This document shows, piece by piece, positions 6,752 to 40,388 of a stretch of 40,568 nt of DNA. Within the stretch, counting starts at the first letter, position 1, and each line of letters opens with the position of its first letter. A model generated the notes under the pieces. The model saw nothing but the letters and a program-made list of their open reading frames with translations. It was not told where the DNA came from and did not search any database. A program made the position numbers and the translations under genes. Source of the DNA: Sphingorhabdus sp. EL138 (lineage in GTDB: Bacteria; Pseudomonadota; Alphaproteobacteria; Sphingomonadales; Sphingomonadaceae). The stretch covers positions 1-40,568 of the forward strand of contig NZ_CAMAYF010000020.1 of the NCBI RefSeq assembly GCF_945862485.1. The letters are read 5' to 3'.

Positions 6752-6770
6752 GCGCCCAGAGGAGAGTGAG

Positions 6771-10602: not shown

Positions 10603-10633
10603 AGCCAATTCCCAATAAAGTTGAGTGGATAAA

Positions 10634-13141: not shown

Positions 13142-13145
13142 ACCC

Positions 13146-15610: not shown

Positions 15611-15611
15611 T

Positions 15612-18742: not shown

Positions 18743-19241
18743 TACCCTTATTCGGCATGAGCCAGTTTCCGATGTGCCCTTTGTAGCAGATGGTGTGCGT
18801 ATCAGTCTTGCACCGCCGATGCAGCGGCATGCGCTGCGAGCGCGCAATGCAGAGGATTTGGAGCGCTTGTTAAAGGTTAAGTTACCAAGGAACATAGGCG
18901 CATCCGAAGGTGGCATTATGTGCCTTGGTCCAGACGAATGGTATCTACGCAGCGAAGCTGGCGCGGCGATCCCGAAAGGGGAAGGGCTGCATCTGGCTGT
19001 TACTAATGTGAGTGAACGATCCATATGCCTTGTCATTGAGGGGCCGCGCGCATCAGAGATTTTAATGGCGGGATGCCCATTGGATCTCGACCAATTTGCC
19101 GTAGGTCGGGCAACGCGCACTATTTACGAAACGGTCGAAATCATCATCCTGCGTGAGGCAGAAGATCGCTTCCATGTCGAAGTCTGGCGTAGTTTTTCTG
19201 CATGGCTTTGGACCGCGATGACCACGGCGGCGCGCCATTGA
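18735..19241 (+). CDS. soxG: Sarcosine oxidase, gamma subunit (set 1)
   Basis: The 168-residue gamma subunit is a GcvT-like fold without catalytic residues that completes the heterotetramer. LGPDEWYLRSE (52-68 region), VTNVSERSICLVIEGPRA and the conserved CPLDLDQF are seen. It starts 8 bases inside soxA, the same offset as in the second set if a GTG start is used there. It ends 33 bases before the transporter gene. Confidence 0.9.
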   Translation: MSDTLIRHEPVSDVPFVADGVRISLAPPMQRHALRARNAEDLERLLKVKLPRNIGASEGGIMCLGPDEWYLRSEAGAAIPKGEGLHLAVTNVSERSICLVIEGPRASEILMAGCPLDLDQFAVGRATRTIYETVEIIILREAEDRFHVEVWRSFSAWLWTAMTTAARH

Positions 19242-19274
19242 TCGAGCGGCATCGCACCTTTGGGGGAGGGTTCA

Positions 19275-21001: not shown

Positions 21002-21994
21002 ATGAAATTGCCACAGGAATTCGATCTGCACGCATTGGAAGTGTTCATCATGACCGTTGAACTTGGCGGCATGTCGCAATGCGCCGCGCATTTGCAGGTC
21101 ACGCAATCAGCGGTTTCGCAAACTATTGCCCGGCTGGAAACTGGCATTGGTGCATCTTTATTTGATCGCACGATGCGTCCATTGGGTTTAACAGCAAGCG
21201 GAAAATCCTTATTTGCGCGTGGCCACAAGTTGATCGCCCATGCACGCCTTGCCTATGATGAGGTCCGCGAAGGTGCGAATTTGCCTATTTCGAGTGTCAC
21301 GGTCGCGATGTCCTTCAGCCTAGCCAACGAACTTACAGCGCCTCTTCTTCAGCATCTTGGGCCGCGGGCAGACCGGTGGAATATCCGCTCGGGTATATCG
21401 CTGGAGCATCAAGGTGAATTTCTGGCGCGAGACATTGACATGATGGTCACCGGCAGTTTCAGCCTTGAACATCGCGACACGGTGGAGTTGCACCCTGTGT
21501 TCGAGGAGAGCTTCATCATGGTTTTCCCGAAAGACTTTCGCGAGCCATTGGACTTTAGCGGGGTGCCAGCGTCATCCTTGCCGTTCATACGTTTTTCCCG
21601 CCTGACGGGCACTGGCCAGCAAATCGAACGTCAGATTGTCCGGATGAAATTGAAACTGCCGCAGATGGTCGAAGTGGAATCCTCGCATCAGCAATTGGCA
21701 CTGGTGGCCGCAGGCATTGGGTGGACCATCACCACGCCGGTGTGCTTGGCAGCGGTGCCGGAGCTGCTACCCGAACTACGCGCCGAACCGATGACGCGGG
21801 GGCGCTTCTCGCGCGCGGTTCAGGTTGTGGCGCGGATGGATGAACTGGGCGATATTCCGCAGCGCACGGCCACTTTATGCCAGCAGGTCTTGCGTGAAAA
21901 AACCTTCCCGCCGTTGATTGCGGAATATCCTTGGATGGCGCAGCAATTGTCTTGGACCGCTCCAGCGCTCGACGGCGCGGAGATGATCGCGTGA
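21002..21994 (+). CDS. LysR-type transcriptional regulator (cluster 1)
   Basis: The 330-residue regulator has an N-terminal winged helix-turn-helix (about residues 9-66: HALEVFIMTVELGGMSQCAAHLQVTQSAVSQTIARLE in consecutive helices) and a C-terminal effector domain. A strong GGAGGGG site precedes the ATG. It lies 137 bases after the betaine transporter and runs in the same direction, followed by a secreted hydrolase gene overlapping it by GTGA. Likely targets are its own promoter and cluster 1. Known betaine-catabolism regulators in pseudomonads are AraC-type (GbdR), so a LysR in this role would differ. Confidence 0.88.
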   Translation: MKLPQEFDLHALEVFIMTVELGGMSQCAAHLQVTQSAVSQTIARLETGIGASLFDRTMRPLGLTASGKSLFARGHKLIAHARLAYDEVREGANLPISSVTVAMSFSLANELTAPLLQHLGPRADRWNIRSGISLEHQGEFLARDIDMMVTGSFSLEHRDTVELHPVFEESFIMVFPKDFREPLDFSGVPASSLPFIRFSRLTGTGQQIERQIVRMKLKLPQMVEVESSHQQLALVAAGIGWTITTPVCLAAVPELLPELRAEPMTRGRFSRAVQVVARMDELGDIPQRTATLCQQVLREKTFPPLIAEYPWMAQQLSWTAPALDGAEMIA

Positions 21995-23307
21995 TTCGCA
22001 ACATTTGGCTTGCGGGCCTTGCCCTACTTGCGGTGCCGGTTCAGGCAGGCGTCCCGAGCATCCCCAGCGTTGACGCGCCAGAACTTGCGGCCTTGGGTCC
22101 AAATAAGGTTGGTTTCCGGTCGGTCCTGTTGACCCATCAAAAACAGCCTGATGTCGAAAATGGGGGTTCCGGCGGCACCGAAGTTCCGCTTGTTGATCGC
22201 AATTTGCGGGTGGATATTTGGTATCCTGCGTTGCCGACCAAAGGAGCTAAACCCGTCCTCTATCGCGCAAGCCTGTGGGCCGAACCACCGTTCCCACCGG
22301 TAAGCTTCTCACAAAAGGGCATGGCGGTGAACGACGCGAAGGCGGCGGGAAGCAAACATCCTTTGGTGATCATCAGCCATGGCTATAGCAACAACCCCGC
22401 CATGATGACGTGGCTGACCGAAAATTTGGCGTCCAAGGGATATCTCGTTGCCGCCATTCATCACAATGATCCAAATCCCTATGTCACGTCGTCCAGCACC
22501 CGCGCTGCGCCGAATTTCAACCGGCCGCGTGACATCGTTTTTGCAGCCGGCGAACTGCGCGCCCTATTGGGCGACCTAATCGACGCGAATAATGTGGCAC
22601 TGATTGGCTATTCACAAGGCGGCTATGGCGTGCTGACCGCCGGCGGGGCATCGCTAGACCCGGCGGGGCCGAATATGGAATTGGTCGCGGGCGGATCGCT
22701 CAAGGCATTCGCGCGCGGCACGCCGCAGGCCGATGCCATGGCCTTAAAAGGCGTACAGGCCTTGGTGGCATTGGCACCCGCTGGCGGCGCGCCACGTAGC
22801 GCTTGGGGCGCAGATGGCCTTGCCGCACTCACCGCGCCTTTGCTGTTAATCCACGGTGATAGTGACCCTGTGGTGGATTATCAAAGCGGTGCGCTGGCGG
22901 TCTTTCGCGTCGCAGTGAACAGTCAGCGCTATCTGCTCACCTACAAACAGGCGGGCCATTCGATTGCGCTCAACCCTGCACCGCTGGAAATGCGCGGGAC
23001 GGTTTGGGACATTGACTGGTTTGAAGACCCCATTTGGCGGCAGGACAGGATTAACGCCATTAACCTGCATTTCATCACCGCCTTTCTGGCTGTCCACCTT
23101 CGGAAAGACAGCAACAAGTCGGCGTATCTGCATATGGCGGTTGAAGATTCGGATGATGGCACATGGGATGCCCCCGCCGGAACAGCATGGGGGGCCTATA
23201 GCCCCGGCGGCGAAGGCGTGACATTATGGAAGGGCTTCCAACGCCGCCATGCACGGGGCATGACTTTGCAGCATCTTCCTGCAGCCGCACCCCCAAAGGC
23301 GCAGTAA
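21991..23307 (+). CDS. Secreted alpha/beta hydrolase, PAF-acetylhydrolase/dienelactone hydrolase-like
   Basis: The 438-residue protein with GTG start (MIRNIWLAGLALLAVPVQAG) has a signal peptide of about 19 residues, so it is periplasmic or exported. The nucleophile is Ser208 in GYSQGG, with Asp292 (HGDSDP) and His323 (AGHS) completing the triad; IISHGYSNNP supplies the oxyanion region. The start is fixed by the 4-base GTGA overlap with the LysR stop and by the signal peptide; an upstream ATG in frame would bury the signal. The substrate is unknown. Its coupling to the regulator of a betaine cluster suggests it might release a betaine- or choline-type compound from an ester, which is inference. 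Confidence 0.82.
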   Translation: MIRNIWLAGLALLAVPVQAGVPSIPSVDAPELAALGPNKVGFRSVLLTHQKQPDVENGGSGGTEVPLVDRNLRVDIWYPALPTKGAKPVLYRASLWAEPPFPPVSFSQKGMAVNDAKAAGSKHPLVIISHGYSNNPAMMTWLTENLASKGYLVAAIHHNDPNPYVTSSSTRAAPNFNRPRDIVFAAGELRALLGDLIDANNVALIGYSQGGYGVLTAGGASLDPAGPNMELVAGGSLKAFARGTPQADAMALKGVQALVALAPAGGAPRSAWGADGLAALTAPLLLIHGDSDPVVDYQSGALAVFRVAVNSQRYLLTYKQAGHSIALNPAPLEMRGTVWDIDWFEDPIWRQDRINAINLHFITAFLAVHLRKDSNKSAYLHMAVEDSDDGTWDAPAGTAWGAYSPGGEGVTLWKGFQRRHARGMTLQHLPAAAPPKAQ

Positions 23308-23312: not shown

Positions 23313-23798
23313 CTAAAGGCTAAGCGCCGCCTCTTTCCAAAAGTGCAGCAGGCCCTGACTGAAGCTTAAGGGCACATAGGCGTCGCACGCATCGTCACTG
23401 ATGACATGCAGACGCACATTAACATGGTCGATGATTGTCGCTGCGCTGCATCCTACGCTGAATGCGGGATCTTCTGCGTCGAAGACGCCGCCTTCCATCA
23501 GCAAGGTCCACCAACCGGGGCCTGAAAGGCGTATGCGGACGATCCCGCCGCCGATGGCGGTCACCGCGCCATCATCGGCCAATATGGCGGACAGTGCCGA
23601 CGCATCGCCTTCTACCAACCACACGGTGGGTTCAAAGCGGATCAAGCGGAGGGCATCACTGCCACCCGACCGTCCGGTCGCTGGCAGTGCAAAGCCCATC
23701 GCTGCTTTAAAGCGTTTCGCGACAGAAGCTGCGTTGCCCCAAATCTCAAAGACATGCAGCGGGGCGGCGGGCAGGGTCGTGATCGTCACTTTAGTCAC
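23313..23798 (-). CDS. Sarcosine oxidase gamma subunit-like protein (set 2)
   Basis: This 161-residue gamma-type subunit is last in cluster 2. FEIWGNAASVAKRFKAAMGF, TVWLVEGDASALSAIL and SGPGWWTLLMEGG correspond to the GcvT-like gamma fold but differ strongly from set 1. I chose the GTG at 23798: GGGAG lies about 10 bases upstream and the start then overlaps soxA by 8 bases, exactly as in set 1. An ATG eight codons upstream has no ribosome site. Its stop is 5 bases from the stop of the convergent secreted hydrolase, where the two clusters meet. Confidence 0.8.
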   Translation of the reverse strand: MTKVTITTLPAAPLHVFEIWGNAASVAKRFKAAMGFALPATGRSGGSDALRLIRFEPTVWLVEGDASALSAILADDGAVTAIGGGIVRIRLSGPGWWTLLMEGGVFDAEDPAFSVGCSAATIIDHVNVRLHVISDDACDAYVPLSFSQGLLHFWKEAALSL

Positions 23799-26526
23799 GG
23801 TAACGCTCTCCCGCTGAATCATAAAAATGGGCTGCGGCAACGCGGACACGCGCTTTTTGGCCGCGTGTGGGGGACGAGGCGATGAGGATTTCGCCATGAC
23901 GGCTAAACCCATCGACCAATTGGCCCAGCGCAACCGACCCGCCCTCGATGATGCGGAAAGCCGCCGCACTGACATGGCCCTGCGGCGAGGCTCCTTCGCT
24001 GGGGATGAGCATCGACCCTTCTGGAATATCGCCCGCAATCGCCTCCAACCCAACCAATTGCCGCCGCCCGGGTTCGGACAAAGCAGGACGGGACAGGCCC
24101 GATGCGCCAATATATCCACCCGCCTTGTTGAGCATCTTGTCGAGCGCCAGATCATGCGGCGTCATGCGCCCGTCGACTTCACCGCCAACGACCAAATGCC
24201 CCTTTTCAATGCGCAGAAACTCCATCGCCTCCAGCCCGTATAACGCGCCGTTTAACGCGTTCACTTGCGTCTCACACGCGGCCCAGACCGTGGCGGCGTC
24301 GCTGGCGGTGATATAGATTTCGAACGCGCGTTCGCCGCTATAGCTGGCGGCCAAGATGATGACCGGAACGCCGGATATGACGGCTGGAACGGTTGACATA
24401 TGGCGTGGTGGATCTTCGCCGATTAAAGCGGCGAGCACAGCTTTTGCCTGTGGCCCGGCAACGGCAAGCCCTGCATAATGCTCCTGCACATTGACCGCCG
24501 ATACGCGCAAATGCGGGCACAGATATTGCCGGACATAAGAGATATGCGTCGCCATGCGGTCTGCGCCGCCAGTTGAGCTGGTGAGGAGATAGCGATTCTC
24601 GTCCAAGCGCCACACAGTGCCGTCATCAAAGACAATCCCGTCCTCGCGCAGCATGAAGGTATAGCGGCCACGCCCGACGGCGAGTTTGCTCACCGTGGTG
24701 GCGCAAATGATTTCCAAGAAAGCCGCCGCATCGGGGCCGCTGACTTCAAATTTGGCCAAGGTTGACACGTCGGTCATCCCGACATTGTTCCGCACGGCCT
24801 TGGCCTCTCGCAGCGCCGCTTGCGCCAAAGTTTCGCCGCCATTGGGATAAGAGCGCGGGCGGAACCAATAGCCCAAGGGCTGCCAGATTGGATTCTTCGC
24901 CGCGTGCAGATCATATAATGCAAGGCGACGGACATGCGCGCCTGCATCTTTCGCGCCTGCACCTGCGATCAAGCCCATCGTGACGGGCGTATAGGGCGGA
25001 CGGAATGTGGTCAAACCGGCTTCGGGAATGGCAACGCCCTGCTTTTCGGCCAAGCGTCCCAAAGCGGCCATATTGCTGAGCTTGCCCTGATCGGTGGCCA
25101 TACCCAAAGTGGTGTAGCGTTTGAGATGCTCGACCGAGCGATAGCCTTCGGCCCAAGCCAGATCGACATCCGCCAGCGTCACATCATTTTGGAAATCGAT
25201 GAAGCTTTTCTTCGGTTTTGAAACCGGCACCATTTTGAATATCGGTTGTGGCTCCGCAGCCCCGCCGATGGTCGTCACATTTTGACGCGAACTGGCGGGG
25301 ACGAAGGCTTGCGCATCTTCATTCCAGTCAAGCGTCCCGCCCGCTTGCATATGCAGGTGCACAACGGGCGTAAACCCGCCGGATACGGCCAGCAGATCAG
25401 CATCCCATTCCATAGTCTTGCCATCGACCAGCGCGCTGAGGCTTTTCAAGCAATGCCGCGCACCCTTGGTCGAAAGCGGAACGGCATCATTATAGACGCG
25501 ATGCCCGCTATTGGCACCCGCAGGTGCTGGCCGTGCGTCGAGGATCGCAACAATTTGCGCGCCTGCGTCTTTGAGCGCCTGCGCGGTTTTATAGGCGTCG
25601 TCATTATTGGTGGCGATGACGAGGCGCTTGCCGGGAATGACGCCGAAACGCCGGACATAGCTGCGCAATGCTTGCGACAGCATGACACCGGGCCGGTCAT
25701 TATGGGCAAAGGCCATGGGCCGTTCAATACTTCCGCTGGCTAAAATCACTTGGCCGGCGCGGACATGCCAGAGACGTTGCGCCACCCCATGAGTTGGGGT
25801 TTGTCCCGGCTCCGATAGGCGCTGGGTCAGGGTGACGAGGTCATTTTCCCAATAGCCTGATGCCGTTGTCCGCGTCAGGATACGCCCACCTGCTGCGCGA
25901 ATGCGTGCGGCTGTCGTCTCAATCCATGCGGCGTCCAGTTCTTGCGGGTCGCGGATGAGCGAGGCGCCAAGGATGTTATCCTGTTCGACCATTATAACGC
26001 GTTTACCTGCCTCGGCAGCGTCGAGCGCCGCCTGCAAGCCTGCGGGTCCTGCGCCGACAACCAGAACGTCACAAAAGGCGGCGCGATGGCTGAACCGATC
26101 GGGATCCGCCTGTGTCGGTGCATTTCCAAGGCCGGCTGCTTTGCGGATGAAATATTCGTAAAGCATCCACCGTTTAGCGGAGCCGAAAAAGGTTTTGTAG
26201 TAAAAGCCCGCGGGCAGCATCGGGGAGGCGAGGCTGAACAACGCGCCCAGATCAAAATTCAGATTGGGCCAACGGTTTTGGCTGCGCGCGACCAAACCTT
26301 CATAAACGAACACATCGGTGGCGCGCGTATTTGGCTCGGCCCTGCCGCCTTCGCCGACGGTGACGAGCGCGTTCGGCTCCTCAACGCCTGCGGTCATGAT
26401 GCCGCGCGGGCGGTGATATTTGAAACTGCGGCCAACAAGGCCAATGCCATTGCGCAACAAGGCCGCCGCCAGCGTGTCACCTGTCTGCGCGGTATAGGCT
26501 TTACCATCAAAGCTAAAGTTGATCAT
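23791..26526 (-). CDS. Sarcosine oxidase alpha subunit-like protein (set 2)
   Basis: Alpha-type subunit of 911 residues. It has the cysteine-free ferredoxin-like N-terminus (FSFDGKAYTAQTGDTLAAAL, VGRSFKYHRPRG), an NAD-binding motif GAGPAG at 158-163, and a C-terminal folate domain (VGMTDVSTLAKFEVSGPDA). The last domain departs from set 1 at places that are constant in true SoxA: SYSGERAFEIY replaces FTGELGFE and LRIEKGHLVVGGEVDGRMTP replaces the LRAEKGF..QDTDGTVTP block. This suggests the same chemistry on a different N-methyl substrate. The start overlaps soxD by ATGA; ten upstream codons in frame are not needed. Confidence 0.88.
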   Translation of the reverse strand: MINFSFDGKAYTAQTGDTLAAALLRNGIGLVGRSFKYHRPRGIMTAGVEEPNALVTVGEGGRAEPNTRATDVFVYEGLVARSQNRWPNLNFDLGALFSLASPMLPAGFYYKTFFGSAKRWMLYEYFIRKAAGLGNAPTQADPDRFSHRAAFCDVLVVGAGPAGLQAALDAAEAGKRVIMVEQDNILGASLIRDPQELDAAWIETTAARIRAAGGRILTRTTASGYWENDLVTLTQRLSEPGQTPTHGVAQRLWHVRAGQVILASGSIERPMAFAHNDRPGVMLSQALRSYVRRFGVIPGKRLVIATNNDDAYKTAQALKDAGAQIVAILDARPAPAGANSGHRVYNDAVPLSTKGARHCLKSLSALVDGKTMEWDADLLAVSGGFTPVVHLHMQAGGTLDWNEDAQAFVPASSRQNVTTIGGAAEPQPIFKMVPVSKPKKSFIDFQNDVTLADVDLAWAEGYRSVEHLKRYTTLGMATDQGKLSNMAALGRLAEKQGVAIPEAGLTTFRPPYTPVTMGLIAGAGAKDAGAHVRRLALYDLHAAKNPIWQPLGYWFRPRSYPNGGETLAQAALREAKAVRNNVGMTDVSTLAKFEVSGPDAAAFLEIICATTVSKLAVGRGRYTFMLREDGIVFDDGTVWRLDENRYLLTSSTGGADRMATHISYVRQYLCPHLRVSAVNVQEHYAGLAVAGPQAKAVLAALIGEDPPRHMSTVPAVISGVPVIILAASYSGERAFEIYITASDAATVWAACETQVNALNGALYGLEAMEFLRIEKGHLVVGGEVDGRMTPHDLALDKMLNKAGGYIGASGLSRPALSEPGRRQLVGLEAIAGDIPEGSMLIPSEGASPQGHVSAAAFRIIEGGSVALGQLVDGFSRHGEILIASSPTRGQKARVRVAAAHFYDSAGERYRD

Positions 26527-26786
26527 GGCAACGCCTCCGGCCCGATAGCGCGGCACCCCGAAATCTCATTGGTGACGCGATGGCGGGTCAGGATCATCCA
26601 TGCCCGGCAGCCATAAGTGTGCCGCCATATTTCATCATCAACGCCGCGGGGATTAGTGCGGGTGAAGAGCTTGGTCATCGCCTCTTGTGATGGTGCATCC
26701 AGTGGCACGACGGAATCGACCGTGCGCTCATAAATGAATTCGGACTGCGCCCGTGGGCCGCAATGCGGGCAGGGTATGCGCATCAT
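26523..26786 (-). CDS. Sarcosine oxidase delta subunit-like protein (set 2)
   Basis: Zinc-binding small subunit of 87 residues. The ligands Cys6 and Cys9 (CPHC, followed by the usual GPR) and the HTYGC pair near residues 56-60 are present. TNPRGVDDEIWRH and RHRVTNEI fit the family. The ATG shares a base with the soxB stop (TAATG) and the stop overlaps soxA (ATGA). The middle part is only weakly similar to set 1, in line with an old duplication or separate acquisition. Confidence 0.88.
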   Translation of the reverse strand: MMRIPCPHCGPRAQSEFIYERTVDSVVPLDAPSQEAMTKLFTRTNPRGVDDEIWRHTYGCRAWMILTRHRVTNEISGCRAIGPEALP

Positions 26787-28042
26787 TAGCGGCTATTCGG
26801 CATTGGGCCGCTCCCGGTTTCATCAATGGTTGCGCCGCGTTCAAAGCGGTCGAGTGAGAAAGGCGCATTCAGGTCATGCGGCTTTCCCGTCGCCAGCGTA
26901 TGGGCATAGGTATAGCCGGATGCGGGTGTCGCCTTAAAGCCGCCATAGCACCATCCGCCGTTGAGGAAGAGGTTGCGGACCGGCGTTTCGCCAATGATGG
27001 GCGCGCCATCAAAGCTCATATCGGTCACACCGCTCCATGTCCGCACCATGCGCAAGCGCGACAAGGCAGGGACGAGCGCGAGGCCTTGTGCCACAGCGCC
27101 TTCCATCACCATCGGGTGGCCACGCTGGGCATAGCTTGGCCAATTATCTGGATCGCCGCCAAAGACGACGCCGCCCTTGTCCGATTGGCTGATATAGCAA
27201 TGCAAGGATTGCGACATGATCACGCTGTTGATCATTGGCTTGACGCCCTCTGTCACCATGGCTTGCAGGGTTTGGGATTCAACTGGCAGTTTCAGGCCCG
27301 CCAAGCCCGCGACATGACCGCTATGGCCGGCCACGCAAATGCCGACGCGCCCTGCGCCAATGCGTCCCCGTGTTGTCTCCACCCCGACCACGGCATCACC
27401 ATCGCGCACAAAGCCGGTGACTTCGCATTTTTGAATGATATCGACGCCCAGGCTGTCCGCGCCGCGGGCATAGCCCCAAGCGACGGCATCATGCCGCGCG
27501 GTGCCGCCGCGGCGCTGGATCAGACCACCCTGAATGGGGAAGCGCGCATCGCGCGACATATCGAGCAGCGGCTCAAGCTTTGCCACCTGATCCCGGGTCA
27601 ACAGATCGGCATCAATCCCGTCGCAGCGCATGGCATCGCCGCGTTCGGCCAGCTTGATCATGTCGGCGTCGCTATGGCCAAGGAACATCGCGCCACGTGG
27701 GCTGAACATGACGTTGTAATTCAACTCATTGCTGAGGCCGTGCCACAGTTTCAGGCCAAATTCGAAGAGATTATGCAAAGGCTCTAGCCGATAATTGGAG
27801 CGCACAATCGTCGTGTTGCGGCCGGTATTTCCGCCACCAATCCAGCCTTTTTCCAGAACGGCAATATTCTTCAGGCCATGCACCTTGGCCAAATAATATG
27901 CCGTCGCCAGACCATGACCGCCACCGCCGATGATGATGATATCATAATGCGATTTGGGCTCTGGGTCGCGCCATGCTGGCTGCCAGTGGCGGTGTCCAGT
28001 TAGGGCCCCGCGCAACAGGCTGAAGGCTGAATATCGGTTCAT
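26786..28042 (-). CDS. Sarcosine oxidase beta subunit-like protein (set 2)
   Basis: Flavoprotein subunit of 418 residues that aligns over its whole length with set 1. The FAD loop (IIGGGGHGLA), the GWIGGGNTGRNTTI block and covalent-FMN His184 in RRGGTARHDAVAWGYAR are at identical residue numbers, and GFKATPASG near residue 373 is the C-terminal active-site segment. It should therefore be an active secondary-amine oxidase. Differences cluster in the middle (residues about 225-330), the substrate side. The start at 28042 overlaps the upstream dehydrogenase gene by ATGA. Confidence 0.92.
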   Translation of the reverse strand: MNRYSAFSLLRGALTGHRHWQPAWRDPEPKSHYDIIIIGGGGHGLATAYYLAKVHGLKNIAVLEKGWIGGGNTGRNTTIVRSNYRLEPLHNLFEFGLKLWHGLSNELNYNVMFSPRGAMFLGHSDADMIKLAERGDAMRCDGIDADLLTRDQVAKLEPLLDMSRDARFPIQGGLIQRRGGTARHDAVAWGYARGADSLGVDIIQKCEVTGFVRDGDAVVGVETTRGRIGAGRVGICVAGHSGHVAGLAGLKLPVESQTLQAMVTEGVKPMINSVIMSQSLHCYISQSDKGGVVFGGDPDNWPSYAQRGHPMVMEGAVAQGLALVPALSRLRMVRTWSGVTDMSFDGAPIIGETPVRNLFLNGGWCYGGFKATPASGYTYAHTLATGKPHDLNAPFSLDRFERGATIDETGSGPMPNSR

Positions 28043-29175
28043 GCGATGGGCATCCACCCACGCTTTTCACGCCAATCCTTTTCAAGCCCGTCAAAGCGCG
28101 ACAGTTTGAGAAGGTCGATATTGGTGAAAGAGCATGTGCCATCAATCACCAGATCACGGATCGCGTGGCCCGATGCCGGCGACAGGCCAAAGCCGACGCT
28201 GGACATGGAGGCGACAACGACATTGTCGGGGCTGGTCAGCCGGTCGATGATTGGACGGCCATCGGGTGAGTTTTCAATCACGCCCGCCCAGCTGCGAATG
28301 ACGTTCAAATGCGCGGCCTTGGGCAGCAATTCGGCCAAACGCTTCGCCAGATTGCGCGCCAGCGGCGTCGATGGACGGGCGGCAGGGCCTGTCGCATCCA
28401 CATCCAGCCATTCATGCGGCCCGCCGCCATAAGCGAGGTTGCCGCGCAATGTCTGGCGTCCATAAATCTTATGCCCGTCAACGCCGCCCAGCGGCATCAT
28501 GGGGGCAGGTTCGGTAATGATCATTTCCGCACGCGCGGCGGCCAGAGGGACGTCAACGCCCAATTGCGCCATCAACTGCGGGATTTGCGGTCCAGCCGCG
28601 ACCACGACTGCATCGCAGCCATAAGTTGCATTGGCAGTTTTCACGCCGGTCACTTTGCCACCAGCGGTTTCAAAACCTGTGACCGGGCTATGCTGAATGA
28701 TTTTGCCGCCCAGATCTTGCAGCGCCCAAGCATAAGCCTGCACCGTGCGTTGCGGGTTGGCATGGCCGCCAAATTTATAATGCACGCCGCCAAAGCAATT
28801 GTCACCCGCCAGCGGAACGGCTTCTTGCACTTGCTTGACGTCAAGCACCTCGACTGGGTGGTTAAGGCGGGTATGGCGTTCGGCAATGAAACGATATTGG
28901 TCCCACTGACGTTCGGTCATCGCAATGAGGATGCGGCCCTTTTGATGTTCTGTCGGATAGCCGAGCAGTTCATCCATTTGCGGCCAAAGCCGTTGTTCTT
29001 CATCGAACAAGGGGCTGGAATAATGCGACGCGCCGCCGCCATTGCGTCCGGAGGCTTCCCAACCGACAATGAACTTGTCGAGCACAGTGACCTTCACACC
29101 CGAACGCGCCAGCCACCAGCCTGCGCTAAGACCCGTGACGCCACCGCCAACGATGACTACTTCAGAGCCGCTCAT
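28039..29175 (-). CDS. FAD-dependent amino acid/amine dehydrogenase, HcnC/OoxB-like
   Basis: DAO-family flavoenzyme of 378 residues with GGGVTG at 10-15 and WEASGRNGGGASHYSS at 39-54, a motif shared with glycine oxidase, DadA, HcnC and the opine oxidase beta subunit. FGGHANPQRTVQAY and WAGVIENSPDGRPIID are typical substrate-domain segments. It is coupled (ATGA overlap) to an HcnB/OoxA-like gene, so the two likely form a complex oxidising a C-N bond of an amino acid or N-substituted amino acid. In context it may remove the second methyl or open the N-substituted skeleton. The start is fixed by the overlap and a GGGG site. Confidence 0.86.
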   Translation of the reverse strand: MSGSEVVIVGGGVTGLSAGWWLARSGVKVTVLDKFIVGWEASGRNGGGASHYSSPLFDEEQRLWPQMDELLGYPTEHQKGRILIAMTERQWDQYRFIAERHTRLNHPVEVLDVKQVQEAVPLAGDNCFGGVHYKFGGHANPQRTVQAYAWALQDLGGKIIQHSPVTGFETAGGKVTGVKTANATYGCDAVVVAAGPQIPQLMAQLGVDVPLAAARAEMIITEPAPMMPLGGVDGHKIYGRQTLRGNLAYGGGPHEWLDVDATGPAARPSTPLARNLAKRLAELLPKAAHLNVIRSWAGVIENSPDGRPIIDRLTSPDNVVVASMSSVGFGLSPASGHAIRDLVIDGTCSFTNIDLLKLSRFDGLEKDWREKRGWMPIA

Positions 29176-30635
29176 GTATACATCCCCGTGTAGAGCATCT
29201 CGCGATGCGCATCCTGATATTCTGTGCCGATATCTTCGACCGGCACCCATTGGGTCGGAATGCCGAACCAGACATCCCATGCCGCATCCATCGCCGCGGG
29301 TTCATCCCATTCCGCCAAAATCTTAAGCGGCAGGGGGCGCACAGGCGCGCGGTGCGACGCAAGCGGGATCGTGCCGAAGGGCTTGTCCGATTCAATCGCC
29401 AGCATCATCGCCACCTGATCGCGGCAGCGACGACCCTGACACACACCCATGCCAGAGCGGGTGAGCCGCTTGATCTGATCCGGGTTGGCGGGGCCATCGT
29501 CGAGCAGTGTGCCAAGCGAGCGCGCCTGAATCGCCGCAGGACGCGGCAAGTAATTGGGTGGCTGAATACCGATTAGGTCCGCCAATGTTACTTCTTCGCA
29601 TTGGCAGATGATCGTATCGGGCGCATTGACGCGCAGCGCCGCACGCACCCAATCCATCCGATAGGCAACATGGTCAAAACCTGTGTCGGGCAGGCCAGCG
29701 CACAGGCCCACAGCCGCAACATTTGGTTCACCCGCAGGAATATAGCCGCCGCGTGTCGCGTTCAGTGCCCGTGGACCATGCATGGCATCGACCAGCTCAA
29801 TCGAGGGGATAAGGCCAATGGCGACGCATACCGTGTCGCAGGAAATATTGGTTCCATCGTTCAAGGTGATGGACTCAATCCCATCGAGCCCGCCTTTGCT
29901 TGCCGCGATGCTTTGCCCATAATGTATGGCAATGCCCGCCGCCGTGATTTTTTCGAGGAGTGCGGCGTCACCTTGCGGGGCATCGCGTACTTCCACCAAA
30001 GCGGCGACATCCAGCCCATGTTCCTTCGCCAGAAGTGCGGTTTCGAGCGCGAGGTCATGCGACCCCAAAACGACAATCCGCCGCCCAGAAAATGCGCCAT
30101 AGCGGGACAGCAGCATCTGCAAAGCGGCGGCCCCCATCACACCCGGCTGGTTCCAGCCCGGAAAGGCAATGGCAAGATCGCGCGCGCCTGTTGCGAGTAC
30201 AATCCGGTCAAAGCCGACCAGCCAAGACCGTTCTGCATCGGCAAGGCCAACGACTTGTTCTGGTAAGCTCTGCACGCCCGGTCCGTTGCGATACACGCCC
30301 CATGCGGTGGTGCCGAGCAGCAGTTCGACACCCGCTTCCATCGCCTTTTCTAGATCTGGCATGCTCATGAAAATGGCTTCGAGCATCCGGTCGCTATTTT
30401 GCGTCGCGGCCGTCATGCGGCCCCCGAAATAGAGCGGCGTATCATTGCCCATCAGCGCGCCAGACACGGGATTTTCATCCACCAAAAGCACCGACGCGCC
30501 GCTGGCTGCCCCTTCTATGGCAGCAGCAATGCCGCTTGGCCCCGCGCCAATGACGACAAGGTCATATTTGGCTTCGGGGGCGCTTCGTGTGCCATTGATG
30601 GCGCACACATCGGTTCCGGTAAAATTCAGATCCAT
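29172..30635 (-). CDS. FAD/NAD(P)-type electron-transfer subunit with BFD-like [2Fe-2S] domain, HcnB/OoxA-like
   Basis: The 487-residue protein has the FAD motif GAGPSG at 30-35, a second nucleotide fold near 187-200 (VVLGSHDLALETA), and a bacterioferritin-ferredoxin-like cluster with Cys344, Cys346, Cys399 and Cys404 (CQCEE ... GVCQGRRCR). This layout is that of HcnB, opine oxidase OoxA and D-hydroxyproline dehydrogenase alpha subunits. A tail after residue 440, rich in W, D and Y, is longer than I expect for the family. The small extra [2Fe-2S] subunit found in the hcnABC type is absent here. The ATG shares a base with the PLP-enzyme stop (TGATG). Confidence 0.86.
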   Translation of the reverse strand: MDLNFTGTDVCAINGTRSAPEAKYDLVVIGAGPSGIAAAIEGAASGASVLLVDENPVSGALMGNDTPLYFGGRMTAATQNSDRMLEAIFMSMPDLEKAMEAGVELLLGTTAWGVYRNGPGVQSLPEQVVGLADAERSWLVGFDRIVLATGARDLAIAFPGWNQPGVMGAAALQMLLSRYGAFSGRRIVVLGSHDLALETALLAKEHGLDVAALVEVRDAPQGDAALLEKITAAGIAIHYGQSIAASKGGLDGIESITLNDGTNISCDTVCVAIGLIPSIELVDAMHGPRALNATRGGYIPAGEPNVAAVGLCAGLPDTGFDHVAYRMDWVRAALRVNAPDTIICQCEEVTLADLIGIQPPNYLPRPAAIQARSLGTLLDDGPANPDQIKRLTRSGMGVCQGRRCRDQVAMMLAIESDKPFGTIPLASHRAPVRPLPLKILAEWDEPAAMDAAWDVWFGIPTQWVPVEDIGTEYQDAHREMLYTGMYT

Positions 30636-31894
30636 CAAACTGTTTCCAATGCCTGTTTCAAATCGCCGATCAAATCGTCGACATGTTCCAACCCGACCGA
30701 TAGCCGCATCGTGCCATCGGTTATTCCGCCTTCCAATCGCTGTTCCCGCGCGACTGCATAATGCGTTGTGCTCGCCGAATGGCAGATCAATGTTTCTGAC
30801 CCGCCAAGGCTGACTGCAACCTTCATCAGCTTGAGCTGATCCAACATCCGGAACGCTTCTGCTTCACCGCCATGCAGGTGGAAGGAAAAGGTCGATCCGG
30901 CGGCTTTGCACTGCCGATCATAGACAGCGCGTTGCCGCGATCCTTCGGGCAGAAAGCCCAAATAGGTAACGCCTGCGACCTTGCGATGATCGCGCAAATA
31001 TTCCGCGACAATGCGCGCATTGCTCATGGCCCGCTCGGTGCGCACCGAAACCGATTCCAACGACCGGAGTACAAGCCACGCCGTGAAGGGATCAAGATGA
31101 TTGCCCCATGTTGTCCGCTGGATCTTCAACTGGTCGATCAGTTCCTTACGGCCTGAAATCCCGCCCGCCAGCAAGTCGCTATGACCACCACAATATTTGG
31201 TGAGGGATGTCATGCACAGATCGACACCCTGCGCGATCGGACGCTGGGCGAAGGGACCAAGCAGCGTATTGTCGACAACAACAAGCGGGCGATATCCCTG
31301 CTTTTCGCCAATCTCATCGGCGATACGCACCATGAGGTCGAGATCGACAATCGCAGCCGTCGGGTTGGCCGGCGTTTCTGCGATGATCAGCTTTAACGGG
31401 CCTTTTGCCATTGCGGCCTCTGCCGCCGCGCGAACATGATCTGCATGGGTGCCATCCAGATAGCTGGTCACATGCGATCCGAATTGCGGCATCATGACAT
31501 TGTAGAGATAGTCCACCCCGCCATAAATGGGCCGACCATGGAGCACACTATCGCCTGTACGAATATACGCCAATGCAATGCTGGAATGTGCGGCCATGCC
31601 GCTGCAATAGGCAACGGCATCTTCTGCGCCGTCAATGGCGGCAAGCCGGGCTTCTAGAAAATCCAGACCGGGATGGCCAAGCCGGGAATAGATATGGTTG
31701 GTCTCTCCAACCAATGGTCCGGTGCCGTCGAAATACGCCTCATGCACGTCTTTGGCATGTTGCGCCGATGGATAGACAAAGGTGGAGGTCATGAAGATTG
31801 GGGGCTTTGCTGCCCCCATCCCCAATTGCGGATCATATCCGAAGGCTACCGCCAATGTTTCTGGGTGAAAGTCCCCCGACTTCTTATTTTCCAT
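30635..31894 (-). CDS. Cys/Met-metabolism PLP-dependent enzyme (gamma-synthase/gamma-lyase fold)
   Basis: Fold-type I PLP enzyme of 419 residues. Asp208 (VVVDNT) pairs with the PLP ring and Lys233 (SLTKYCGGH) forms the Schiff base; YSRLGHPGLDFLE (69-81) and YCSGMAA (96-102) are family blocks. Tyr124 is present in IYGG, but the cysteine two residues later that marks methionine gamma-lyase is Gly126, so methionine gamma-lyase is doubtful. Known relatives carry out gamma- or beta-elimination or replacement on cystathionine, O-acylhomoserine or methionine. Its place between a Rieske oxygenase (11-base overlap) and an amine dehydrogenase suggests it acts on the amino acid left after demethylation. 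Exact reaction unknown. Confidence 0.85.
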   Translation of the reverse strand: MENKKSGDFHPETLAVAFGYDPQLGMGAAKPPIFMTSTFVYPSAQHAKDVHEAYFDGTGPLVGETNHIYSRLGHPGLDFLEARLAAIDGAEDAVAYCSGMAAHSSIALAYIRTGDSVLHGRPIYGGVDYLYNVMMPQFGSHVTSYLDGTHADHVRAAAEAAMAKGPLKLIIAETPANPTAAIVDLDLMVRIADEIGEKQGYRPLVVVDNTLLGPFAQRPIAQGVDLCMTSLTKYCGGHSDLLAGGISGRKELIDQLKIQRTTWGNHLDPFTAWLVLRSLESVSVRTERAMSNARIVAEYLRDHRKVAGVTYLGFLPEGSRQRAVYDRQCKAAGSTFSFHLHGGEAEAFRMLDQLKLMKVAVSLGGSETLICHSASTTHYAVAREQRLEGGITDGTMRLSVGLEHVDDLIGDLKQALETV

Positions 31895-33092
31895 GGGTAT
31901 CAATATAGACACGCGAAACGTCACAATACCAGTCCGTAAAACGGCGGGCTAGCATCTCTGCATCGGCCGAATATGGACCGGGCGTATATCCCGGGCTGTT
32001 GACGCCCTTATGGTTGTTTTCCGCCAGTTCCTTGTCCTGCGAATTGGTCACCGCCCATAATGAGATGAGGGCATCAACATCATAATCGACGCCTTCAACT
32101 GCATCCTTATGGACATACCATTTGCTGAACACATGCGTTTCCGTCGCGCTGACCGGCATGCAGCTGAACATGAACACATAATCCGACGTTGCATGTGCAA
32201 AGAGGTGCGGATCAATCGCCCAGCGCAGCGAACCAATATCGCCGCCATTGGTCGTGATCAGCGGCTTTTTGATCAGCGGCTTGCCATCCTGTGATATGGA
32301 GGTGCAGCCTTCATTGAGCGCGAAGCGCGCGACCTGCCACCAATGCCCTTCCACTGGTTCATGCGGAAAACCATGGGCGTCCATGGCGGCGCTAAAGGCT
32401 TCTGCCCGTGCATCTTCATGTGCATCGAAATGCTTCGACATGCCCACAGGAAAGGTCTTTGCCAATTCCGGATGACCGGTCGCGCAATGGTAGCATTCGC
32501 GCGCATTTTCCATGACAAGCTTCCAGTTCGCATCTTCGACCAGCTTGTCGACATGCGCGAGCTTTAGATTTTCGAAATTGGCAGGTGCCGCATAAGCCGA
32601 AAACTTCTCCCGGAAATCATCGATCGGCGGTGGATTGTCCGCAAGGCAGATGAAGATCGCGCCACCGAAACATGCAATTGCAATGGGTTTCAGCCCATGG
32701 GCGCTTTTGTCGAAATCATCTTCCATGCGGCCTGCGGCAAACAGCGATCCGTCCAAATCATAAGTCCAGCGATGATAAGGGCAGACCAGCTTGGGTGCGG
32801 TGCCATGGCCCGGTTGGCAAACCATGGAACCACGGTGGCGGCAGCTATTGTGGAAAGCGCGGATCGTGCCTTCTTTATCGCGCGTGATCACCACAGGCCA
32901 TTTGCCCACCATCATGGAGATGTAACTGCCTGCTTTTGGCAATTCGCATTCCATACCGGCCATCAGCCAGCTTTGGCCATAAATCGCCGCCATATCGAAA
33001 TCGAAGCTATCTGTTTCGGTGTACAATGCTTGGGGCAAGGTATGCCCTTCACGGCGTTGTTCAAAAAGCGCGCTTATCCGCTGCAAATCCAT
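31884..33092 (-). CDS. Rieske oxygenase, quaternary-ammonium type (set 2)
   Basis: Terminal oxygenase of 402 residues. The Rieske ligands are Cys84, His86, Cys104 and His107; the catalytic site is His202 and His207 with Glu199 in NARECYHCATGHPE, again Glu in place of the usual bridging Asp. FICLADNPPPIDDF, VHKDAVEGVDYD and GYTPGPYS resemble GbcA even more than the cluster 1 enzyme does. Predicted to demethylate or hydroxylate a betaine-type substrate with release of formaldehyde. I chose the ATG at 33092 (AAAGG 7 bases upstream); a TTG six codons earlier is possible. It heads cluster 2 and is divergent from a LysR gene. No reductase is adjacent. Confidence 0.87.
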   Translation of the reverse strand: MDLQRISALFEQRREGHTLPQALYTETDSFDFDMAAIYGQSWLMAGMECELPKAGSYISMMVGKWPVVITRDKEGTIRAFHNSCRHRGSMVCQPGHGTAPKLVCPYHRWTYDLDGSLFAAGRMEDDFDKSAHGLKPIAIACFGGAIFICLADNPPPIDDFREKFSAYAAPANFENLKLAHVDKLVEDANWKLVMENARECYHCATGHPELAKTFPVGMSKHFDAHEDARAEAFSAAMDAHGFPHEPVEGHWWQVARFALNEGCTSISQDGKPLIKKPLITTNGGDIGSLRWAIDPHLFAHATSDYVFMFSCMPVSATETHVFSKWYVHKDAVEGVDYDVDALISLWAVTNSQDKELAENNHKGVNSPGYTPGPYSADAEMLARRFTDWYCDVSRVYIDTHGK

Positions 33093-33268: not shown

Positions 33269-34183
33269 TTGCCGTTAAATGCCCTGCGCGCGTTTGAAGC
33301 GGTCGGGCAGAATCTAAGCTTCACTGGCGGTGCGTCCGCGCTTTCGGTGTCGCAAAGTGCGATGAGCCGTCATGTTGGCGGGCTTGAGGAACTGCTTGGC
33401 AAGCAATTGTTCGTGCGCGATGCGTCGCGACTCTCGTTGACGGCGGCTGGCGAAGAATTGCTGCCGGTGGTGAGCAAATGCCTCGACCGGCTTGAGCAAA
33501 CGATGAATGCCATTCGCGATGATGAAGTGACTGGTCGTTCACTGCGCCTTCATGTGCCGCCGTCGCTGCTGCAACAATTGTTCCTGCCGATGCTACGTGA
33601 TTTCCATGTTGAGCATCCCGATTTGCGCCTTGATGTTTCGAGCGCGCATGTGACAGGATTGCCATCAACGGATTTCGACATGGCGATTGTGTATGACCGG
33701 CCTAATGTCGATGATCGGATTACGGATCTTCTCTGGATGGTGCAGGTCGCGCCATTATGTTCGCCGGCAACCGCGGCCCGCGGGCGGGGCAAGTCACTGG
33801 AAGACTTTTTGAAAAGTGAGGAGCTTTTGCACCTCAAACTAGATGGCGAGTCGCGCGATCTTTTGTGGACGGCCTATCTCCGGCAGAGCCAGTTGGCTGT
33901 CGCAACGCATGGCGGTCTTGCCTTTGATACGACTATTGCCGTTGCGCAATATGCCATGGCCGCCAATGGTGTCTTTTTGGGCGACATTGATATGTTCGCG
34001 CAGGAAATTGCCGATGGGCGGCTGGTGATGCCTTATGAAGCAGTTATTGAAGACGGCTATGGCTATTATTTGAAACTGCACGCCGATGATCTGGCTGACC
34101 CGGCTATTTCGATGCTCCGAAGCTGGCTCATCAGTCGTTTTGGGGCATTGCGGCAAGCGCCGAGTCCGCGCGCGCCAGGCTGA
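33269..34183 (+). CDS. LysR-type transcriptional regulator, GcvA-like (cluster 2)
   Basis: This product of about 304 residues has the N-terminal PLNALRAFEAVGQNLSFTGGASAL followed by VSQSAMSRHVGGLEE, typical of the GcvA/AmpR branch of LysR proteins, then an effector domain. There is no ATG: the listed start is TTG at 33269, while the residues just upstream in frame (NRRW before LPLNALRAFEA) look like the normal family N-terminus, and an ATT at 33254 would include them. Neither has a clear ribosome site, so expression may be low. It is divergent from cluster 2, its likely target. Its last 53 bases overlap fdhD on the other strand. Confidence 0.87.
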   Translation: MPLNALRAFEAVGQNLSFTGGASALSVSQSAMSRHVGGLEELLGKQLFVRDASRLSLTAAGEELLPVVSKCLDRLEQTMNAIRDDEVTGRSLRLHVPPSLLQQLFLPMLRDFHVEHPDLRLDVSSAHVTGLPSTDFDMAIVYDRPNVDDRITDLLWMVQVAPLCSPATAARGRGKSLEDFLKSEELLHLKLDGESRDLLWTAYLRQSQLAVATHGGLAFDTTIAVAQYAMAANGVFLGDIDMFAQEIADGRLVMPYEAVIEDGYGYYLKLHADDLADPAISMLRSWLISRFGALRQAPSPRAPG

Positions 34184-34931
34184 TTAAGCGCAAGCCTGAT
34201 TTTTGCGCAATATTGATCGCCAAGTCGGTCGCAGCGGAAATCGTTAAGAGCATTGGGCAGTTTGCGAGGATCGTTTTTTGCACCAGCTCAAGGCTGCACC
34301 GCGCGGTCAGGACGATAAAGCCTTCCGAAATATCTATGTCTGCGTTGGCGAGTGCGCCAATCAACTTGTCGAGCGCATTATGGCGGCCAACATCCTCGCG
34401 CGTCATCAGGATAGCACCGTCGGGCGCACAAAAAGCTGCCGCATGTGCAGAACCTGTGTTGGCATTCAATGTCTGGTGTGACCGCAATGCCGATAGCGCT
34501 GCAAAAATCGCCGCGTCGGCGACATCGATCTGCGCCGTTACAGGCGGCAAAGGGCGCATGACTTCTTCGAGATTGTCCATACCACACAGGCCGCAGCTAC
34601 TTTCCGAGACACGTTGACGGGCTCGGGCAATCACTTTCTCTGCGTTTTCCTGCGGCACCTGAATGCGCAGTATCCAGCCCAACTCTGAAATATGGGTGTC
34701 GAGGGCCAGAATGTCGTCAGGGTGCGTAATCAGCCCTTCGGACAGGCTGAAACCGACGGCATAGTCCTGAAGATCAATCGGCGTCGCCATCATCACGGCA
34801 TAGCCAATGCCATTAAATTCAATAGCGATGGGTGCTTCAGCTATGATGGGCCGGACTATTATCTCGGTCGAACCCTCATTTGGGGTAAGTACCGCAAAAC
34901 GGATAGGTTTGGCGCCCTGTTCAACCGCCAT
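34131..34931 (-). CDS. fdhD: Formate dehydrogenase accessory sulfurtransferase FdhD
   Basis: The 266-residue cytoplasmic protein moves sulfur from a cysteine desulfurase onto the molybdenum cofactor of formate dehydrogenase. Its two functional cysteines are Cys113 and Cys116 in SSCGLCG. HAAAFCAPDGAIL and TREDVGRHNALDKLIG are family hallmarks. The start at MAVEQGAKPIRF overlaps fdsD by 11 bases, while upstream codons in frame are out of keeping with the family. Last gene of the fds operon; its 3' end overlaps the convergent LysR gene by 53 bases. Confidence 0.95.
   Translation of the reverse strand: MAVEQGAKPIRFAVLTPNEGSTEIIVRPIIAEAPIAIEFNGIGYAVMMATPIDLQDYAVGFSLSEGLITHPDDILALDTHISELGWILRIQVPQENAEKVIARARQRVSESSCGLCGMDNLEEVMRPLPPVTAQIDVADAAIFAALSALRSHQTLNANTGSAHAAAFCAPDGAILMTREDVGRHNALDKLIGALANADIDISEGFIVLTARCSLELVQKTILANCPMLLTISAATDLAINIAQKSGLRLISLARADSALAAMPQND
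34176..34204 (+). terminator. Possible terminator after the cluster 2 LysR gene
   Basis: CAGGCT (34176-34181) pairs with AGCCTG (34193-34198) around an 11-base loop and is followed by ATTTTT. It starts at the LysR stop codon and lies within the 3' part of fdhD on the opposite strand. The stem is short, so this is a weak call. Confidence 0.3.
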
Positions 34932-35133
34932 TTTGCGCGTCGGCCAGCAAGCGAATGGCGGCCGCCGCAACCGGCGACAGGCCATCACTCCCATGGGCAA
35001 AAATCATACGTTTCATCCGCGGGTCCCAGAATGTCTGGATATGGTCTGCAACCGCAGTAACAGGCGCAGCGTCGGTTGCCAGATTGGTCGCAATCTGGTT
35101 CGCCATGTGGACAAGGCGCTCTTCACTGGTCAT
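34921..35133 (-). CDS. fdsD: NAD-dependent formate dehydrogenase, delta subunit
   Basis: This 70-residue protein has the pattern LVHMANQIATNL near the start and FWDPRMKRMIFAH near residue 35-47, diagnostic of FdsD. The subunit is needed for maturation or stability of the cytoplasmic FdsABG complex. Its ATG overlaps the fdsA stop (ATGA), and fdhD starts within its last codons. Confidence 0.94.
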   Translation of the reverse strand: MTSEERLVHMANQIATNLATDAAPVTAVADHIQTFWDPRMKRMIFAHGSDGLSPVAAAAIRLLADAQNGG

Positions 35134-37988: not shown

Positions 37989-37996
37989 GTCTCTAC

Positions 37997-38542
37997 CTAC
38001 CTTATACCCATTTGCGATTGTTGCGTAGCATATTGCGCAAGTTCCAACGGCGTGTTCAAATTGTGAAAAACATCTGACGTTGCGATTGCCCGTGCGCCAC
38101 TGACGGTAATCCAGCGTCGCATCGAAAGATCGTCTTGATTGCGCAGATGTTGGTCAAGAACAGGCGCAAGCGCAACGGGCCACGCGGCGAACAAATAATG
38201 CCCGTCAATATAGACAGCACGTCCATCCGGCAGGTTGCGCGGCAATTCCGGCACGGGGACGACGTCGCAACCCGCGGTCAATACTTCGTCAAAGCCGTTT
38301 TGCTGCGCATATAAAAGCGCAGCATTCAGGCCACCCAATGGCCCCATATCGGGAAAGGGGGTGTCTTCTACCCACTCCATTCCAGGCCATCTGCGTCCGC
38401 AGACAATCAAGGCGTCAACCTGTTCGCGCAGTCCCTCTGCAACATGATCGATCAGCGGGCGACCGTTTAACAATGCAGCGGCCTTGTCGCTGCCAAAGCG
38501 CGTTGCCTTGCCCCCGGCAATGATAGCGCCGAGCCTTCTCAC
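37997..38542 (-). CDS. mobA: Molybdenum cofactor guanylyltransferase
   Basis: The 181-residue product adds GMP to molybdopterin to make the MGD cofactor needed by FdsA. IIAGGKATRFGSDKA (about 7-21) is the GTP-binding LxxGGxxxRxGxDK-type motif, MGPLGGL and TAGCDVV carry the metal-binding and guanine-side residues. The start is GTG (GTGAGAAGG) overlapping the fdsB stop by 4 bases; the long in-frame extension upstream lies inside fdsB in another frame and is rejected. mobA between fdsB and fdsA ties cofactor synthesis to the enzyme that uses it. Confidence 0.92.
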   Translation of the reverse strand: MRRLGAIIAGGKATRFGSDKAAALLNGRPLIDHVAEGLREQVDALIVCGRRWPGMEWVEDTPFPDMGPLGGLNAALLYAQQNGFDEVLTAGCDVVPVPELPRNLPDGRAVYIDGHYLFAAWPVALAPVLDQHLRNQDDLSMRRWITVSGARAIATSDVFHNLNTPLELAQYATQQSQMGIR

Positions 38543-39981: not shown

Positions 39982-40388
39982 ATGGCCTCCAATAAGGTTT
40001 TGAATTTAGCGTCGTCCAAACGTGCATAGACCTTATCGCCTACCATTGCCGATGGGCCAACGGCGCATAATCCAAGGCAATAAATTGCCTCCACTTTGAC
40101 GCGGCTTTGGTTATCGGCGATGGGCACTAACGCTTCGACACCGCGTGCTTTACAGGCTTCGGCGCGGCACAATTTTAAAACGGGGCGGGCCTCCGCTTCT
40201 TTGCGGAAATCATGATAGAAACTGACAACGCCATAAACTTCCGCGCGGGTCAGGTTCAATGCGCTGGCAATCTCACGCATGGCATCCTCGCTGACATGGC
40301 CAAATGCCTTTTGCACGTCGTGCAAGATGGGCAGGAGCGGACCTTCTCTATCCTTATGCTCAGCCAAAATGTCAGCGATGGACGCCAT
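39978..40388 (-). CDS. fdsG: NAD-dependent formate dehydrogenase, gamma subunit
   Basis: NuoE-like [2Fe-2S] subunit of 136 residues with Cys74, Cys79, Cys104 and Cys108 (CRAEAC and CLGLCAVGP), relaying electrons to the FMN of FdsB. GPLLPILHDVQKAFGHV and EVYGVVSFYHDF are family blocks. Its ATG follows the frmA stop with no spacer at all (TGA|ATG), so translation is probably coupled to the formaldehyde-oxidising gene. Confidence 0.95.
   Translation of the reverse strand: MASIADILAEHKDREGPLLPILHDVQKAFGHVSEDAMREIASALNLTRAEVYGVVSFYHDFRKEAEARPVLKLCRAEACKARGVEALVPIADNQSRVKVEAIYCLGLCAVGPSAMVGDKVYARLDDAKFKTLLEAM

Follow-up and report, generated by a model that had tools for sequence, protein, structure and literature searches.

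An operon tied to a clade of Cys/Met-type PLP enzymes and its possible role in degrading a trimethylated amino acid

The subject of this analysis is an eight-gene operon of Sphingorhabdus sp. EL138 that encodes a Rieske oxygenase, a pyridoxal 5'-phosphate (PLP) enzyme, an HcnB/HcnC-like pair and the four subunits of a sarcosine oxidase. It lies in a stretch of DNA called the window here, one whole contig of 40568 bases (NZ_CAMAYF010000020.1) from a draft genome of 2.18 Mb. Among named records the closest is Sphingorhabdus wooponensis, whose PLP protein is 97% identical. Conservation of the gene set reaches far beyond its near relatives, and the genes point to the catabolism of an N,N,N-trimethylated α-amino acid whose side chain carries a leaving group, most likely glyceryl-N,N,N-trimethylhomoserine. 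We give this reading an even chance of being right.

Gene Content of the Operon

The operon stands behind a divergent LysR-type regulator gene, LysR2 (33269..34183, plus strand; HTH_1 and LysR_substrate domains). Its eight genes, all on the minus strand, touch or overlap their neighbors by 1 to 11 bases (taking possible start codons), as in one operon. They encode a Rieske non-heme iron oxygenase (31884..33092; Rieske, Ring_hydroxyl_A), a PLP enzyme of Cys/Met metabolism (30635..31894; PF01053, 316 bits), an HcnB/SoxA-middle-like subunit for flavin adenine dinucleotide (FAD) and [2Fe-2S] (29172..30635; Pyr_redox_2, SO_alpha_A3) and an HcnC-like FAD subunit of the DAO family (28039..29175; DAO, 218 bits). 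The SoxB-type β subunit of heterotetrameric sarcosine oxidase follows (26786..28042), then the δ subunit SoxD (26523..26786, with its start at 26786 or 26783; PF04267, 73 bits; CxxC, HxxxC), the α subunit SoxA with a folate-binding domain (23791..26526; GCV_T, SO_alpha_A3, Fer2_4) and the γ subunit SoxG (23313..about 23798, start codon unsure; TIGR01375, 52 bits). The earlier note had read this arrangement from the letters of the DNA, and open reading frames with Pfam and NCBIfam matches (NCBIfam alone for SoxG) fit every gene that it named. The expected motifs are likewise present. The Rieske protein has CxH/CxxH and, at the bridging position, a Glu (NARECYHC..H), HcnB has C-terminal CxC and CxxxxC motifs, which we take to bind [2Fe-2S], and the His in TARHD of SoxB is presumably the place of the covalent flavin mononucleotide.

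The oxidase subunits differ in how closely they follow their curated families. SoxB exceeds its cut-off (TIGR01373, 660 bits vs 529), and SoxA (TIGR01372, 1001 vs 1164), SoxD (74 vs 116.5) and SoxG (52 vs 143.95) fall below theirs, as divergent subunits. HcnB gives a 61-bit match to the sarcosine oxidase α subunit 2gag. No small HcnA-like [2Fe-2S] open reading frame occurs among the eight abutting genes, the rest of the genome not having been searched, and the three-gene HcnABC set was not found as such.

Conservation of the Gene Set

Loci were located through the PLP gene, and the counts describe what accompanies its clade rather than how frequent the clade is. A gene was scored as present when a tblastn match covered 40% of its length, above a set identity, anywhere in the fetched stretch; identical PLP sequences were counted once and near-identical genomes were kept. 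The main count takes loci of at least 14 kb, which leaves out 20 of 88 clade loci and 2 of 25 PLP-paralogue controls. The 68 long clade loci include 50 named records and one plasmid.

The conserved synteny that the earlier note had proposed to look for is evident. The Rieske gene accompanies the PLP gene at all 68 long clade loci, HcnB and HcnC at 67 each and SoxB or SoxA at 52, as against 0 of 23 controls for the Rieske, HcnB and HcnC core. LysR2 has homologues (40% or more) at 53/68 clade loci and 0/23 controls. Weak, distant matches among the controls are a major facilitator superfamily (MFS) gene at 30% (L140), a formate dehydrogenase gene at 25% (L128) and SoxB at 24-25% (L160, L163). A count over 68 loci from named genomes, some cut by contig ends and one (L128) a PLP paralogue, gives Rieske in 65, HcnB in 63, HcnC in 59 and SoxB in 56. 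In sampled genomes the clade itself was found in 4/398 of the phylum, 3/385 of the class, and 25/199 and 5/247 of two families, as well as in 28/45 genomes of the same genus, one through a partial gene. The PLP enzyme has many close relatives among public sequences; the best 120 of 6007 public matches are all at least 85% identical, and the rest may include paralogues.

The linkage follows the phylogeny of the PLP enzyme. A quick tree of 114 PLP rows places 89 on one side of a branch (approximate likelihood ratio test, SH-aLRT, 100), comprising all 84 rows with at least two partners and five with a Rieske neighbor only; the other side consists of 25 without partners. By identity, every PLP gene at 54% or more (87/87) among 114 in fetched neighborhoods is accompanied by one or more of the Rieske, HcnB and HcnC genes, and the 27 below 54% have all three in 2 cases and none in 25. 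Residues specific to the clade include Y51, A57, H61, F65, L82 and Y389. Paralogues from outside the clade (L158, 8376-10966; L160, 6214-11005) lie near FAD-dependent oxidase-like genes that weakly match the dimethylglycine dehydrogenase (DMGDH) of the window, possibly another amino-acid route.

The enzyme for the third step varies among the 68 long loci: SoxB or SoxA is present in 52, a monomeric sarcosine-oxidase-like DAO gene in 6, both in none and neither in 10. The six monomeric loci are five of kinship group f16, perhaps Rhizobiales, and L157; the matches of their gene are to N-methyltryptophan oxidase, at 171 bits, and to monomeric sarcosine oxidase. This exchange of SoxBDAG for a monomeric type suggests that an N-methyl amino acid is oxidized in the third step. 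SoxBDAG follows the core in Sphingomonadaceae; in Caulobacteraceae-type loci the Sox genes are near the core, in the opposite direction where read (L183, L184, L185, L186), or not seen.

HcnC was found in 6 of the 398 sampled phylum genomes, four with the whole cluster and two, L213 (1-10671) and L214 (4405-12237), in which HcnBC stands beside Sox genes and ABC transporter genes. No match to the Rieske or PLP protein of the window occurs among the open reading frames called in 20 kb at these two loci. Because they are paired there without Rieske or PLP genes, HcnBC and the Sox genes look like a working pair. The L213/L214 set might represent a simpler route that handles dimethyl or N-alkyl amino acids. 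The same two loci bear on another reading, with HcnBC as an opine-type oxidase; the operon would then break down an N-alkylated opine or some other modified amino acid, and the Rieske enzyme would attack a different group. In its favor, the transporters beside these HcnBC relatives are, by eye, of amino-acid or peptide type. We nevertheless consider it improbable, given the Sox genes beside HcnBC in both loci and the linkage of the operon to a betaine-type Rieske gene and two kinds of sarcosine oxidase.

Family matches of the Rieske protein raise glycine betaine as a substrate. GbcA is its nearest model, and L157 has a GbcB-like reductase gene between Rieske and PLP (213 bits vs cut-off 500) and, beyond LysR, genes for an OpuAC-family substrate-binding protein (closest to structure 7yle), for a permease and for an ATPase, together a betaine-type ABC transporter. 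These features would suit a second route of the glycine-betaine/choline type, in which HcnBC is the dimethylglycine dehydrogenase and the PLP enzyme serves some unrelated purpose, for example the salvage of sulfur amino acids. The Rieske protein, however, scores 240 bits below the GbcA equivalog cut-off (NF058607, 430 vs 670), and the PLP clade is tied to Rieske and Hcn genes whereas its paralogues are not. Such a route might also be duplicated by cluster 1 (window 10625-20864), a set of DMGDH-like, Rieske, SoxBDAG and BCCT genes, although the substrate of cluster 1 is unproven: the Rieske (409 vs 670 bits) and BCCT (443 vs 650) proteins are below curated glycine-betaine cut-offs, and the earlier note's assignment of glycine betaine to cluster 1 is not borne out. 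We judge a second glycine-betaine route quite unlikely, and it is plausible that the operon serves another compound. The nearest solved structures to the Rieske protein are 3n0q, 3vca and 4qup, of which one, 4qup, bears a demethylase name, followed by carnitine monooxygenase 6y8j; 3vca and 4qup represent stachydrine (proline betaine) Rieske systems.

The PLP Enzyme

PLP enzymes of the Cys/Met type eliminate or replace groups on the β or γ carbon of amino acids. The operon protein has the PLP lysine in SLTK and scores 503.5 bits against a cut-off of 504 for the cystathionine γ-synthase family protein model NF005455 (PRK07049). The solved structures closest to it are 5ijg, which bears only the name of a Cys/Met PLP enzyme, and 7swh, called a putative cystathionine γ-synthase; methionine γ-lyases come next.

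A thioether or selenoether betaine, such as methionine betaine, could be the substrate if the PLP enzyme were thiol-releasing, like methionine γ-lyase or a cystathionine lyase. Methionine γ-lyases and cystathionine-type enzymes are indeed its best-matching described functions, and source records often label close relatives "methionine-gamma-lyase." The score for methionine γ-lyase is nonetheless 215 bits short (TIGR01328, 334.9 vs 549.7), and a glycine (YGGV) replaces the cysteine (YGC) that we take to be part of the active site of that enzyme. Moreover, no sulfur or thiol gene was found among the neighbors scanned with family libraries, a subset of all neighbors, and thioether or selenoether betaines are not, to our knowledge, abundant. 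Such a substrate has a low probability.

Proposed Pathway and Substrate

Reactions and step order are inferred from the enzyme families, and conservation, gene content, family matches and linkage are observed. The Rieske enzyme would remove the first methyl group as formaldehyde, converting the trimethyl to the dimethyl compound. HcnBC would oxidize this to the monomethyl amino acid, and SoxBDAG, or the monomeric sarcosine-oxidase-like enzyme elsewhere, would remove the third methyl group and free the primary amine. Elimination by the PLP enzyme would then expel the γ substituent from the demethylated amino acid, yielding ammonia and 2-oxobutyrate. The demethylations are placed before the PLP step because the PLP aldimine needs a primary amine, and the side chain should carry a leaving group because the family acts on β or γ substituents. 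LysR2 is probably a sensor of the substrate or an intermediate.

Formaldehyde disposal genes are linked to the operon. FrmA (640 bits) is found in 12 of the 68 long loci; most are near kin of the window, and L133, L187 and L194 are of Caulobacteraceae type. Directly beyond LysR2 lies a formate dehydrogenase set of the NAD type with FdhD (34131..40388, minus strand; FdhD-NarQ; Fdh-alpha, 913 bits), a possible sink for the released methyl carbon; it has a relative in 20/68 long loci, 19 near kin and the Caulobacteraceae-type L187.

Other linked genes hint at a lipid-derived substrate. A predicted secreted α/β-hydrolase, ABH (21991..23307, plus strand), possibly an accessory esterase, occurs in 20/68 long loci, a Spinster-family MFS carrier in 19/68 and an S15-family (S15/CocE) hydrolase in 4/68, each with 0/23 among controls. 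Among the matches listed for the predicted ABH model, a feruloyl esterase is best, and Lp-PLA2 (PAF acetylhydrolase), a phospholipase, also stands nearest. An O-substituted homoserine betaine fits these recurrent hydrolases and the carrier better than would a sulfur-substituted amino acid.

In light of these data, the proposal of the earlier note, three N-demethylations followed by elimination, is supported in part: it is the best fit, and the exchange of Sox for monomeric genes, the pairing of HcnBC with Sox, and the linked reductase, transporter, FrmA and formate dehydrogenase genes agree with it. The note had also suggested a betaine of a sulfur- or γ-substituted amino acid. The sulfur half loses ground, with the methionine γ-lyase Cys missing and the family cut-off missed, and the γ-substituted half gains as O-substituted homoserine. 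Its impression that no such operon had been described stands for the open-licence PubMed Central papers listed in searches, where no description of the catabolism of the headgroup of the betaine lipid diacylglyceryl-N,N,N-trimethylhomoserine (DGTS) was found either.

Glyceryl-trimethylhomoserine is the candidate substrate that deacylated DGTS of algae, mosses and lichens would leave, and on it the PLP enzyme would cut the ether and release glycerol. Tentatively, with more doubt than confidence, the genes could form a first DGTS-headgroup pathway: an Lp-PLA2-like secreted hydrolase and the Spinster carrier would supply lyso-DGTS or glyceryl-trimethylhomoserine, three N-demethylations would follow, and a new clade of PLP γ-lyases would split the ether to give glycerol, ammonia and 2-oxobutyrate. 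Synthesis of DGTS by the bacterium itself was rejected, as PF11899, presumably the DGTS-synthesis family, was not found in its own genome; with PF11899 in 1/46 genomes searched overall, the lipid would come from outside. According to a 2023 review, no enzyme has been identified for breaking the ether of the DGTS headgroup (PMC9892843). If ether cleavage is correct, the PLP enzyme would catalyze a new reaction, filling that gap, and the route would return carbon and nitrogen of phosphorus-free lipids to microbial food webs.

Free homoserine betaine would use the same three demethylases, with the PLP enzyme dehydrating homoserine to 2-oxobutyrate. This compound is described as an osmolyte, first characterized in Trichodesmium and also present in waters of reefs and seagrass (PMC13403184), and the ABC transporter of L157 is of an osmolyte type. 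It leaves the recurrent hydrolases and Spinster-family carrier unexplained, however. Homoserine, moreover, already feeds threonine and methionine metabolism, so a dedicated lyase would not be needed. We regard free homoserine betaine as an unlikely substrate. Several record titles name ponds or a bloom. Among the papers listed in literature searches there was neither an operon of such content for homarine nor a lead for a canavanine γ-lyase. Chemistry disfavors ergothioneine, hypaphorine, trimethyllysine and carnitine, which would offer no γ leaving group for the PLP family or call for a different lyase.

Several observations weigh against glyceryl-trimethylhomoserine and the scheme built on it. 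An alkoxide is chemically harder to expel than a thiolate, and nothing within the eight-gene operon is specific to lipids. The 10 of 68 long loci that show no third-step enzyme include just one, L183, in which it is cut by a contig end, and L188 lacks HcnBC beside PLP. The best structural match of the ABH model is to a feruloyl esterase, a shared fold that shows no function, and the ABH sequence weakly matches lipases and poly(ethylene terephthalate) hydrolases. Two genomes, G028 (L088) and G036 (L084), keep the cluster without ABH, as does G020, where the contig ends early. The Sphingorhabdus ABH gene sits between cluster 1 and the operon and could belong to either: in a hand count of the 45 same-genus genomes, the PLP clade is in 28, ABH in 27 and both in 25, and the cluster 1 Rieske gene is in 26, 24 of them with PLP. 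All three vary together in the genus, and therefore co-occurrence cannot assign ABH. The Spinster-type MFS family is broad, the control locus L140 has its 30% match to this gene, and the substrate of bacterial HnSpns is reported as uncharacterized (PMC9440201). Finally, the L157 transporter is of a small-betaine type, and the recurrent dehydratase, oxidoreductase, dehydrogenase, sulfotransferase-like and desaturase neighbors described next fall outside the proposed scheme.

Other Linked Genes

Genes for an MR/MLE sugar-acid dehydratase, a GMC oxidoreductase, an aldehyde dehydrogenase (ALDH), a TPR-sulfotransferase-like protein and a TonB receptor recur beside Novosphingobium operons and some in Caulobacteraceae (L098, 2785-7000; L110, 1-8245; L122, 2-5496). 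The GMC and ALDH enzymes could in principle oxidize released glycerol. Genes of the FA_desaturase family and for a PhnD-like binding protein are each present in five long clade loci (L134, 3001-4842, and L178-L181).

A divergent gene resembling pyruvate dehydrogenase E1 or transketolase, E1_c22, occurs in 8/68 long loci and three short ones, beside LysR2 in Sphingomonas and Novosphingobium loci (L114, 5278-7623) and near HcnC in L124 and L189. Its comparison with MdeB of Pseudomonas putida, which we take to be a 2-oxobutyrate dehydrogenase, offers a hint that E1_c22 acts on 2-oxobutyrate; it stays a hint because the match to aceE, at 146 bits against a cut-off of 860, is weak, and a search for mdeB in open-licence PubMed Central literature returned nothing. 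Elsewhere in the window (5258-8225), an aldehyde dehydrogenase gene adjoins one for an RPE65-family protein.

Comparison with Known Systems

Glycine betaine catabolism in Pseudomonas and Vibrio natriegens proceeds through gbcAB, dgcAB and soxBDAG (PMC12093977). The operon resembles this route in its succession of a Rieske oxygenase, a flavin dehydrogenase and a heterotetrameric sarcosine oxidase. It differs in having HcnBC in place of DgcAB, an added Cys/Met-type PLP enzyme, Rieske, SoxA, SoxD and SoxG proteins below the curated cut-offs, and a LysR regulator rather than the AraC-type GbdR. With the stachydrine and carnitine systems (3vca, 4qup, 6y8j) it shares the Rieske oxygenase superfamily, which acts there on quaternary ammonium compounds; we know of neither a PLP lyase nor an HcnBC pair there.

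The PLP enzyme matches MdeA, MetB and NF005455 proteins over its whole length and shares their catalytic Lys. Unlike methionine γ-lyase, it lacks the active-site Cys, scores under the cut-off for that enzyme and belongs to a separate clade tied to N-demethylase genes. The HcnB-like and HcnC-like pair, with its FAD and [2Fe-2S] motifs, resembles HcnABC and opine oxidase; in contrast to HcnABC, the operon has no gene for an HcnA-like small subunit and places the pair beside Rieske, PLP and sarcosine oxidase genes. The Sox genes keep the B-D-A-G order of heterotetrameric sarcosine oxidase, with SoxB over its cut-off. They form a second, paralogous set in the window next to the one of cluster 1, and the monomeric enzyme takes their place in 6/68 long loci. 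Even with another betaine as substrate, the chain of Rieske enzyme, HcnBC, sarcosine oxidase and PLP lyase would be a way into side-chain-substituted betaines, one not met in the literature searched. The parts are known; the combination is new to us.

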